Assembly: GCA_029433265.1 (NCBI GenBank)
Contig: JAQTHT010000002.1
Span: 62,001 to 126,000, forward strand
Source of the DNA: Leuconostocaceae bacterium ESL0958
GTDB lineage: Bacteria > Bacillota > Bacilli > Lactobacillales > Lactobacillaceae
Reading direction: 5' to 3'
Length of the DNA: 64,000 nucleotides
Below the pieces are notes generated by a model, which had not been told where the DNA came from, did not search any database, and saw only the letters and a program-made list of their open reading frames with translations. This document shows, in pieces, positions 55,735 to 60,007 of the stretch; the stretch's first letter is position 1; each line of letters begins with the position of its first letter. A program made the translations under genes and the position numbers.

Positions 55735-55954
55735 GGTTGGTTAATTCCAAATCTGTCAGGCTGCCATCTTCTTGCATCACTTTTGCCAGTGACTTTTCAG
55801 CCTTTTGCAGGGTTTCTTGTAAATCCTTGGCTAAGGCCACACCCTTTTGAAAGTCGGACAAGGCCCCTTCCAATGGTCGATCGCCCTGGTCCAAGGCCTG
55901 AACAATGCCTTCTAATTCCTGTAACTTTGCTTCAAAACTTTTTTCTTCAGCCAT
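55727..55954 (-). CDS. xseB: Exodeoxyribonuclease VII small subunit
   Basis: 75 residues, an all-helical protein with the family pattern [43 protein letters not shown]. It binds XseA to form exonuclease VII, which degrades single-stranded DNA. It overlaps xseA by 8 bases and ispA by 8 bases. Confidence 0.95.
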
Positions 55955-57221
55955 TCTTCTCTCCTGTTATGGCGGCACTGACCGCCCCATCTGCAAAGGT
56001 CAATTCTACCTGATCGCCGACTGTCAAGTCCTGCCGTCGCTTCACTAATTTTCCCTGTTCATTACGGACTAAGGTGTAGCCGGCCGACAAAATTTTCAAC
56101 GGGGACACCAGGTCCAGCTTCGTACTGAGCAAGGATACTTGCTCCTGGTAGGGCCGGAGTAACGTCCGCCTGGCTTGCACCAGCTGCCAAAACGCCTGGT
56201 CAAAGCGAGCCTGTTGGCGATTGACTTGCTGTTCAAAGCTTTTATGGAGCCGTTCTTCTAGGTAGTCGACCCGTTGCTGATAGGCTGTGTACAGTCGGTC
56301 CGGTTGTTGCAAAATCGGGCGGTTTAACAGCTGATTCAGCCGCTCCTGCCGATTGGTTAACAAGCGTTTGAGCGCCGCCACTAAACGGAGGCGGTCCTCA
56401 TAGAGTCGGTCCACTAGTTGCGCTTCGGTAATCGGCGTCGCCAGCTCTGCCGCAGCCGTTGGCGTCGCCGCCCGGCGGTCCGCTACAAGGTCCACCAAGG
56501 TATTGTCTGTTTCATGGCCAACTGAAGCAATGACTGGCGTTGCCAATTGACGGACCCGGCGAACTAGCTGTTCATCATTAAAGGCCCAGAGGTCTTCGAT
56601 GGAACCACCGCCTCGGCCAATGATCAGCGCGTCAAAGCCCAGCTCGTCCACCCGGTCTAGCTGCGCTAGGAGAGAAGGCACGGCTTGCTCTCCCTGTACG
56701 ACAGCCGGCAAAAGCAGGACTTGAGCCGTTGGAAAGCGCCTGGCTACCGTCTGCGCCACATCTTCAATGACCGCCCCTGTCGGGGAAGTGATGACCCCAA
56801 TTTTTTTAGGAAAGGGAGGCAACGTCTTTTTTTCAAAGTTAAAGAGCCCTTCCCGCTGCAAACGCGCCCGTAGTTGCGTCAGCGCTAAGTACAGGTCGCC
56901 CACCCCGTCGGCTTTCATTTCATCGATGATAATGGAATAAGAACCCGCTGGTTCATAAACTTGGACGTGTCCAACAGCAAAAACTTTCATGCCTTCTTTG
57001 GGTTCAAAAGAAAGGCGGGACTGGTAGGAAAAGAAAGCCGCCCGGATGACCGCCGGCTGGTCGGGGTCTTTGATTGAAAAATAAAGGTGGCGCCCCTTCC
57101 GATTCCCTAGGTTCGAAATCTCCCCCGTTAGGTATACTTTGCCCAGATAAGGGTCCCGGTCAAATTTTGCTTTCAAGTAACCGGTTAAGGCGGCTACACT
57201 GAGGTACTGTGCTTGTTCCAT
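55947..57221 (-). CDS. xseA: Exodeoxyribonuclease VII large subunit
   Basis: About 424 residues from the ATG at 57221 ([21 protein letters not shown]), with AGGAG upstream; the frame back to 57251 lacks support. Order: N-terminal OB fold (about 12-105, [20 protein letters not shown]), catalytic domain with [37 protein letters not shown] and [29 protein letters not shown], then a coiled coil and a short C-terminal domain. A TATAAT box sits just upstream, downstream of the intergenic RNA terminator. Confidence 0.96.
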
Positions 57222-57274
57222 ACTGACTCCTAGCATCAATCTAGCTTTCATTATAACAGAGTCTGCCAGGACAA

Positions 57275-57505
57275 ATAAAAAACAGCTAACCGTAGTTAGC
57301 TGTTAGTTTGGCATGCCAGATCCGCTCTGACGGGCGGCTAACCGCAGTTAGCAAGTCTCCGTCACCTCAGCAGCGCTGATAGTCGTGGTGAGACTAGACA
57401 AATTCCACAATTTGCTAGTCATCTACGCCAAATCCGTGGCTTGGAATTGAATCCAGTAGACCGGGTGAGCGTCCCAAAATGGACGCGCTCGACTCATCGC
57501 ATACC
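57275..57505 (-). ncRNA. Candidate structured small RNA of unassigned family
   Basis: About 230 bases on the minus strand between the ywnB-like gene and xseA, bounded by its own promoter and terminator. The 5' GGTATGC (57499-57505) can pair with GCATGCC (57311-57317) to close the molecule. Inside are hairpins at 57467-57490 (GAGCG arms), TCTAC/GTAGA (57422-57460), 57392-57420 (GACTAG arms) and TGACGG/CCGTCA (57328-57364) capped by GCTAAC/GTTAGC. There is no open frame of note. I see no SRP, RNase P, tmRNA or T-box hallmark. 6S RNA or a cis-regulatory leader cannot be excluded. Confidence 0.6.
57279..57304 (-). terminator. Terminator of the intergenic RNA
   Basis: Perfect 10-bp stem AACAGCTAAC (57281-57290) and GTTAGCTGTT (57295-57304). 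On the minus strand the loop is UACG closed by C-G (a stable UNCG tetraloop), followed by TTTTATTT. Confidence 0.9.
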
Positions 57506-57508
57506 ATC

Positions 57509-57537
57509 ATTATGCCAGTTTTTCTTGGGAAAGGCAA
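57509..57537 (-). promoter_or_regulatory. Promoter of the intergenic RNA
   Basis: Minus strand: TTGCCT (57532-57537), 17 bases, CATAAT (57509-57514), starting 3 bases past the ywnB-like stop codon. Confidence 0.7.
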
Positions 57538-57540
57538 GTC

Positions 57541-58398
57541 TTAATTCGTCAACAGTGCGCGAACAGCCGCTGTCAAATCTAAGTTAGCTAAGGAAGCCCA
57601 GCTCTGCATGGTAGTGGCCGGCACCGCCAGTGAACCACTGGCCACAATTTCCTGTGCGCCCGCTAAGAAAGCAGCGGCCGGTGCGGCCAGCTGGACCGTC
57701 TCTTCCAAAAAACGCGCCGCTGCCTGCTGGTCCCCTTCTTGCACCGCCACTTCTTGATCGGTCACCTGACCCACAGCAGCCAAGAGATCGTCGTAGCTGT
57801 GCAAAGGACCGCCAATTTCCAATACGGCAGCGGGATCGGTCACCTGTAAGCTAGCTTGTGCGGCGATTTGTCCGTAGACCTTTTTCGGCAGCCAACCGGC
57901 TTTTCCAGCAGCCCCCGCATGCACTGCCCGGCCAGTCTTGGCAGCTGCTTGGAGCAGGGGCGCTTCATTCTCCAAATACCAATTGTTTCGTAGGAAAACA
58001 TAGTCAAGGCCCGTCGACTCAATCAAGCGCTCCGTAAAGGCGTGGTCAGCGGCCAAGGGACTAGTAGACGTCTGCGCCTTTGGAAAACTTGTATAAACAA
58101 TTCTGGTAACGCCCGCTTTTTGGGCCGCCTCGACCACGTTCCGATGCTGCTGCTGCCGGGCTGTTAGCTCACTACTCGAAACAAAGAGCACAGTATCAAT
58201 GTCTTCAAAGGCTTGGGTCAAGGCAGCAGGGTCATCGTAATTACCCAGGCGAACCTGGACCCCTGCTGCTTGCAGGGACGCTGCTTTCTCTTGACTGCGA
58301 GCCAGAGCGTAAAGTGCTGTCGGTGTTACTTGCTGCTGTAAGGTTGCCAGGGCAGCCTGGCCCAGGCCGCCCGTAGCGCCGGTTACTAAAATCTTCAT
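57541..58398 (-). CDS. NAD(P)H-binding SDR (NmrA/YwnB-like) protein
   Basis: About 285 residues from the ATG at 58398 (MKILVTGATGGLGQAAL), with AAAGGA upstream. The Rossmann GATGGLGxxA motif, a conserved VLFVSSSE loop and RIVYTSFPKAQ place it in the atypical SDR group of NmrA, quinone-oxidoreductase-2 and YwnB. The catalytic Tyr-x3-Lys of classical SDRs is not evident, so it may be a redox sensor or quinone reductase. Divergent from an Rrf2 regulator, as ywnB from ywnA in Bacillus. Confidence 0.85.
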   Translation of the reverse strand: MKILVTGATGGLGQAALATLQQQVTPTALYALARSQEKAASLQAAGVQVRLGNYDDPAALTQAFEDIDTVLFVSSSELTARQQQHRNVVEAAQKAGVTRIVYTSFPKAQTSTSPLAADHAFTERLIESTGLDYVFLRNNWYLENEAPLLQAAAKTGRAVHAGAAGKAGWLPKKVYGQIAAQASLQVTDPAAVLEIGGPLHSYDDLLAAVGQVTDQEVAVQEGDQQAAARFLEETVQLAAPAAAFLAGAQEIVASGSLAVPATTMQSWASLANLDLTAAVRALLTN

Positions 58399-58432
58399 GG
58401 TCAATCCTTTCTTGCGTCTACTTCGTTAAACT

Positions 58433-59430: not shown

Positions 59431-59949
59431 CTATTCTGACTTAGCCTGCTTACCCTCTTTTTCTGCTGCTGCGGCCGTTTCCTGGTCCGCCTCTTCGGCC
59501 AGATTTTGATTTTCTTGAATCAAGTCCACCATTTCGGCAAACCAAGCTGCCATCTTCTGCTGAACCGTTTCCGGGTCGTCTTGATAAGCAGATAAGGAAG
59601 CCGCCTTCTGTATTTTTAACTGCGACTTTGAGATATAAGGATTATCCACTACTTGATAAACCTGCAGTTCATAGTTTTCTTCTGGATAAATCAGTTTCTT
59701 TTCCTGGTTGGCATAGCGCAAGGGCAAGTTAATCGCATTAATTTCTAAAGCAAAAACAGAGCCACCAGCTTCAATCCCACCGTCCAAAACCAACGCTGCT
59801 CGACCAATATCATTTCGCTTGGCTAACGTGGCAAAACTGGCAAAAAGGCTGTCCAGATCAATGGCCTGGCCCGCTTTACCGGTCATTGTTTCTGCTGCGT
59901 ATGTTTGTTCAGCGATTTGATCCAAAATCGTCTGTCCCTTTACTTCCAT
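59431..59949 (-). CDS. Hypothetical protein
   Basis: 172 residues from the ATG at 59949 (MEVKGQTILDQIAEQ), with GGAGG upstream. Soluble: an N-terminal helix, a beta-rich centre (GGSVFALEINAINLPLRYA, ENYELQVYQVVDN) and a C-terminal coil (about 125-172) ending in a Glu/Ala/Lys-rich tail with EEADQETAAAAEKEG. I do not recognise the family. Its promoter overlaps the terminator of the upstream oxidoreductase gene. Confidence 0.65.
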   Translation of the reverse strand: MEVKGQTILDQIAEQTYAAETMTGKAGQAIDLDSLFASFATLAKRNDIGRAALVLDGGIEAGGSVFALEINAINLPLRYANQEKKLIYPEENYELQVYQVVDNPYISKSQLKIQKAASLSAYQDDPETVQQKMAAWFAEMVDLIQENQNLAEEADQETAAAAEKEGKQAKSE

Positions 59950-59972
59950 GCTCGCCTCCGCTTTCCAATAAT

Positions 59973-60007
59973 AAAAAAAGTATAGCATAGGCTATACTTT
60001 TCGCAAA
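59973..60007 (-). terminator. Terminator of the FAD oxidoreductase gene, overlapping the next promoter
   Basis: Stem AAAGTATAGC (59977-59986) with GCTATACTTT (59991-60000), followed on the minus strand by TTTTTATT. The same bases contain TGC-TATACT and, 16 bases upstream, TTGCGA, a good extended -10 promoter for the gene at 59431-59949. Confidence 0.75.

Follow-up and report, generated by a model that had tools for sequence, protein, structure and literature searches.

A Ref68/Lacto-3 RNA gene next to xseA in a Leuconostocaceae bacterium and its complementarity to helices 89 and 90 of 23S rRNA

The RNA gene and its neighbourhood

A genuine structured RNA gene is located on the minus strand of the window (the whole 64,000-nucleotide stretch of contig JAQTHT010000002.1 that was analysed), where it runs from position 57502 to ca. 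57276 and is flanked by an NmrA-like gene and by xseA, in a Fructobacillus-type genome of 1.30 Mb (Table 1). Its close kin at this locus are Fructobacillus species, with xseA identity of 64–71%. A free-standing structured RNA gene running from promoter to terminator beside xseA had been proposed in an earlier note made from the letters of the sequence, and the promoter and terminator scans, the predicted fold, and covariation among relatives all agree with it. The 17-spaced promoter, TTGCCT-17-CATAAT, is the sole promoter-like site within positions 57000–57800 (0.4 expected in shuffles), and it begins, as the note had it, 3 bases past a stop codon, that of the upstream open reading frame 57541–58404. 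The stretch described there as devoid of an open frame is indeed without a meaningful one, the longest with a start codon on the RNA strand comprising 40 codons, while the UNCG-loop terminator was recovered as a 10-pair stem with a UACG loop; the terminator loops in relatives are mostly UUCG or UACG. The separate TATAAT of xseA, located after the RNA terminator, was seen as well, likewise in L002 and L007.

Table 1. Features of the RNA locus in the window
Feature	Position	Strand	Remarks
Ref68/Lacto-3 RNA gene	57276..57502	-	about 227 nt; ends placed by the -10 box (5') and the terminator (3')
Predicted RNA start, A/U of AUGCGAUG		-	placed from the -10 box
Promoter TTGCCT-17-CATAAT, extended -10 TG	57509..57537	-	promoter scan; same layout in relatives
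Site 1, 5'-terminal guide AUGCGAUGAGUCGA	57489..57502	-	complementary to 23S 2506–2519 (5' strand of helix 90)
Hairpin H1 (GCGUC...GACGC)	57469..57488	-	in other genera part of a three-way element
Branched hairpin P2, conserved loop CGGAU	57421..57461	-	Rfam alignment and covariation
Hairpin P3, carrying the loop complementary to 23S	57393..57419	-	covariation
Site 2, loop UGUGGA	57404..57409	-	complementary to 23S 2473–2478 (UCCACA, apical loop of helix 89)
Hairpin P4 (CUCACC...GGUGACG)	57360..57392	-	alignment of relatives and covariation
Hairpin P5, Leuconostocaceae-specific 3' domain	57337..57352	-	arms resemble the terminator arms in this species alone
Site 3, UGCCAAAC in the linker before the terminator	57306..57313	-	complementary to 23S 2490–2497; Leuconostocaceae only
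Intrinsic terminator, UACG loop, T-run	57277..57304	-	terminator scan; stem 57304..57281
xseA (exodeoxyribonuclease VII large subunit)	55947..57251	-	adjacent gene with a separate -10
NmrA-like NAD(P)-binding protein gene	57541..58404	-	upstream neighbour; absent from that place in relatives

The RNA gene adjoins xseA in Fructobacillus and Convivina, and the flanking genes of Ref68, the family to which it belongs, vary from genus to genus. A special tie to xseA is not borne out by these differing neighbours, and because of them Ref68 would be expected to act in trans. In many Lactobacillaceae, the gene upstream of Ref68, located 24–52 bases before the RNA, is a conserved one whose counterpart in the window (59431–59988, minus strand) codes for a protein of ca. 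185 amino acids, and the orthology of the RNA is thus backed by synteny; in the window, an rrf2-like gene, the nmrA-like gene, and a small open reading frame now sit between the two. In three Lactobacillaceae genera (g3, g8, and g11; L243, L244, L245, L252, and L253) Ref68 is preceded at ca. 1.4–2 kb by the 5S gene of an rRNA operon, in the same direction, which is a weak genomic hint in favour of the action proposed below.

Family membership, fold, and distribution

A search with Rfam models gives a match to RF02840 (Ref68, Enterococcus sRNA 68, Lacto-3 RNA) at 57501–57400 on the minus strand, covering model positions 1–124 of 124 with 45.5 bits against a gathering score of 44. The earlier note had left the family unassigned and had itself named a hit to a known family as grounds for giving up its reading, so on this point it was overturned. 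The RNA has the traits of the family, namely the 5' end UGCGAUGAGUCGA and, after it, the modelled hairpins with their CGGAUU and GUGG loops, and it is a divergent, enlarged member of Ref68/Lacto-3. It shares with the RF02840 RNAs this 5' end and the same three modelled hairpins, the CGGAUU and UGUGGA loops included, but the Fructobacillus and Leuconostoc members score at or under the cut-off and their H1 is short. Their 3' domain, which is enlarged and contains a possible third 23S site, is not covered by the Rfam model. In this genus the model ends at about position 102 of the 227-nt RNA, and P4 together with the 3' domain (57276–57399) lies outside it. Members of the Streptococcus and Leuconostoc types score under the RF02840 cut-off though they are clearly homologous. 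No stated function of Ref68/Lacto-3 was found in the open-access papers searched; earlier reports may exist outside them.

The RNA folds with a predicted free energy of -85.2 kcal/mol (z -3.6), a stability reached by none of 200 shuffles, and the fold contains the four or more internal hairpins described previously. The covariance check in related genomes proposed in the earlier note turned out in favour of a conserved structure, with compensatory changes in 32 of 67 consensus pairs among 15 relatives; the structure counts exceed those of all 500 shuffles and of every slid version. The closing stem joining the two ends of the molecule is a less well supported element, as its bases are near-invariant in the same 15 relatives and hence uninformative for covariation. 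Pairings within the molecule that would compete with an outside partner are predicted for the 5' end of the Leuconostocaceae RNA. The GCTAAC/GTTAGC arms shared by the penultimate hairpin and the terminator, on which an alternative-pairing switch had been proposed, are present in this species; they are not found in relatives, and the switch was abandoned on account of this lack of conservation. The core of the P2 loop (CGGAU/AGGAU/AGGAA) is kept throughout the order. A consistent 23S complement of this loop (CGGAU/AGGAA) was searched for and none was seen; the loop might be a protein-binding site or be engaged in a tertiary contact.

Ref68 is a single-copy, free-standing RNA family spread over the order Lactobacillales. 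Its model finds a match in 148 of 296 Lactobacillales genomes, representing 47 of 75 genera, always one per genome, and a pattern search for the 5' motif places it, some chance matches included, in 192 genomes of 54 genera. A search of 200 genomes from the class outside Lactobacillales yielded no Ref68, and among 14 control genomes only Lactococcus, which belongs to the order, had it. Within Lactobacillales, the families f8 and f9 appear to be without Ref68, though their 23S target sequence is identical. Because of its apparent absence from these two families and from the rest of the class, Ref68 is not generally essential for making the 50S subunit. The Enterococcus faecalis element EF0408_EF0409, considered as the same RNA, was ruled out, being RNAI of the par toxin–antitoxin locus.

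Complementarity to 23S rRNA

The complementarity of the RNA to 23S rRNA and the covariation with it were not seen in the earlier note. The 5'-terminal AUGCGAUGAGUCGA pairs in 14 of 14 positions, one of them G-U, with UCGGCUCAUCGCAU of the genome's own 23S rRNA, positions 2506–2519 (E. coli numbering, counted from m2A2503), the 5' strand of helix 90, adjacent to the peptidyl transferase centre. No shuffle out of 1500 of the 13-mer of this site matches 23S rRNA equally well, and the duplex reaches -23.1 kcal/mol against the whole 23S, compared with -19.2 for the best of 300 shuffles; 23S rRNA was picked as the partner by recognition and not in an unbiased transcriptome scan. The best 14-mers of the whole RNA against 23S are the 5'-terminal ones. 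The guide is invariant in the genus and nearly so across the order, and the conservation of the RNA 5' end stops where its complementarity to 23S stops. In 41 genomes, exact matches to the 13-base TCGRCTCRTCGCA lie almost exclusively in 23S genes and in the RNA gene, and no recurrent mRNA target was found among these exact 13-base matches.

Variation within site 1 is compatible with pairing. The combinations of 23S position 2513 with RNA position 6 are A-U (49 cases), G-U (15), and G-C (15), with A-C never occurring; C6 is thus found in the RNA only together with G2513 (15 cases, against 0 of 49 with A2513). In two genera (g28 and g71) of families otherwise having A2513 and U6, C6 was noticed first and G2513 was then found as predicted. 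In family f5, G10 stands opposite G2508 in several genera and the 5' helix is shortened to 10 pairs. The proposed pairing of site 1 with 23S rRNA is well supported by the 14-bp complementarity and these compatible changes.

The second site lies in the loop of hairpin P3, which throughout the order has the form UGUGRA and complements UYCACA at 23S positions 2473–2478, the apical loop, or tip, of helix 89. The variable base stands opposite position 2474, its counterpart in the window being base 57405 (minus strand), and the two agree in all 78 genomes in which both partners were read and hairpin 3 was identified by folding, some draft genomes without a 23S sequence having been left out: C2474 occurs with G in 43 of 43 and U2474 with A in 35 of 35. 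In an alignment of 77 RNAs the information of the 2474 label (0.994 bits) is captured in full by the site-2 column, and the runner-up column reaches 0.647. Position 2474 changed at least seven times on an rpoB tree of 30 genomes, built by a quick method; for the five switches on its strongly supported branches, all five independent pairs are concordant (sign test p 0.0625, which alone is above 0.05). In several lineages with U2474 the loop pairing extends to 9–10 contiguous pairs, GAUGUGAAC(U) with (A)GUUCACAUC. The perfect and repeated covariation makes the predicted pairing of site 2 with 23S rRNA very well supported. One genome (G020, L246:3083) has a Ref68 copy with an intact 5' guide that has lost hairpin 3 with its UGUGRA loop.

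In Leuconostocaceae, a third candidate site is found in the linker between the last hairpin of the 3' domain and the terminator. The linker in Fructobacillus, Convivina, and Leuconostoc, and likewise in L234, is GCAUGCCAAACUAA, with CAUGCCAAACUA invariant. Within it, UGCCAAAC, invariant in 15 sequences, forms 8 of 8 Watson–Crick pairs with 23S 2490–2497, which falls between the targets of sites 1 and 2 on 23S rRNA. A pairing of site 3 is suggestive, and its position between the other two strengthens the case.

Proposed action on 23S rRNA and alternative readings

Conserved complementarity to rRNA accompanied by covariation with the partner, as expected of an rRNA-pairing RNA, was found for Ref68. 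Taken together, the 23S stretches opposite the three sites take in the tip of helix 89, its 3' strand, and the 5' strand of helix 90, next to the peptidyl transferase loop. The order of sites 1 and 2 along the RNA is the reverse of that of their targets along 23S, as a single antiparallel multi-site duplex needs; site 3 is out of this order and would need to loop back. The 5' end of the RNA would pair with the 5' strand of helix 90 (2506–2519), hairpin loop 3 would kiss the apical loop of helix 89 (2473–2478), and in Leuconostocaceae the single-stranded 3' linker would also cover 2490–2497. In the mature 50S subunit the helix-90 site is base-paired and buried; the action of Ref68 is therefore likely to fall on immature 23S rRNA, during 50S assembly. 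Helix 89 is a late-folding part of the peptidyl transferase centre and needs assembly factors and uL16 for its placement (PMC11260487). It is on account of the closed helix 90 and of the late, factor-dependent folding of helix 89 that a role in assembly is proposed. Until proteins like uL16 arrive, Ref68 would keep helix 89 and helix 90 separate, or in register, in the immature particle, and would then be released, much like the U3-type RNAs of eukaryotes. On the comparative evidence, Ref68 is probably a free-standing RNA that pairs with 23S helices 89 and 90 and acts during 50S assembly; the assembly role taken by itself stands slightly above even odds, and both binding in cells and the timing of the contact are what we infer from the sequences. 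It is an evenly balanced proposition that Ref68 is a bacterial chaperone or guide RNA for the catalytic centre of the ribosome, a counterpart of the snoRNA type whose two linked sites, three in Leuconostocaceae, direct the folding of helices 89 and 90 in the pre-50S particle.

The proposed action resembles that of the U3-type, rRNA-chaperoning snoRNAs of eukaryotes and of the archaeal C/D or H/ACA guides, which are likewise trans-acting RNAs that carry a number of short antisense segments for a single rRNA region, with a proposed action before the subunit matures; the U3 snoRNP chaperones pre-18S rRNA (PMC8058203). Ref68 differs from them in being bacterial, in having an intrinsic terminator and a target in the peptidyl transferase centre of 23S rRNA, and in that no modification is implied. 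Inspection of the invariant columns in the alignment of relatives revealed no C/D (RUGAUGA/CUGA) or H/ACA boxes, and the invariant 5' end of Ref68 is the antisense stretch itself. RbgA, ObgE, YjgA, and uL16, which take part in late maturation of the 50S subunit and its peptidyl transferase centre, act on the same helix 89–93 region (PMC11260487), but they are widely distributed proteins, whereas Ref68 would be an RNA confined to one order.

The same pairing could serve a later purpose, with Ref68 acting on damaged, inactive, or degrading 50S subunits or 23S rRNA, in hibernation, quality control, or rRNA decay, or sensing free 23S rRNA. All the pairing evidence applies to this possibility equally, and the sites become accessible only when 23S is unfolded, a state that decay also yields; we regard it as doubtful, since the helix-90 site is paired in the mature 50S and two or three linked sites conserved so precisely would fit a structured intermediate better than random fragments. 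That Ref68 mimics the helix 89/90 region as a decoy and sequesters a ribosome-assembly protein is very unlikely: its 5' end does resemble the 3' strand of helix 90, because both complement the same 23S strand, but the 5' end and the loop complement 23S rRNA rather than copy the strand presumed to be bound by a protein, and loop 3 covaries as a pairing partner.

A free-standing gene with its own promoter and terminator would suit an ordinary trans-acting sRNA that regulates mRNAs through its 5' seed, the match to 23S being coincidental or secondary, and sRNAs that target mRNAs typically have a conserved, single-stranded seed at the 5' end (PMC8058203). Nevertheless, the 13-base targets in 41 genomes are almost only the 23S genes and the gene itself, and agreement at the second site in 78 of 78 genomes through at least seven changes is left unexplained, which makes such a role highly unlikely. 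The long, hairpin-rich RNA adjoining xseA in Fructobacillus and Convivina could also be seen as a cis-acting leader or switch of that gene or as a divergent 6S RNA, both hardly credible. A terminator and the separate -10 box of xseA intervene, the neighbours change between genera, and neither a fixed position before the same gene nor co-transcription with it was found. 6S RNA, one of the families named for checking in the earlier note, is a stand-alone structured RNA of similar size, yet no covariance-model match to it (RF00013) was obtained in the window or region, where RF02840 matches instead; a weak 6S-like match occurs at another locus in a Fructobacillus relative. Where both were seen, Ref68 and 6S lie at different loci, and the two families co-occur in genomes elsewhere in the order.

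Ref68 is conserved in the majority of lactic acid bacterial families, and the proposed pairing with 23S rRNA provides it with a concrete target, located at the peptidyl transferase centre. Pairing of a small RNA with helices 89 and 90 of 23S rRNA, with repeated covariation in trans, appears to be new for bacteria. To our knowledge, trans-acting RNAs for the building of the large subunit have been described only for eukaryotes and archaea; if the assembly role of Ref68 is true, such an RNA would be at work in bacteria as well.
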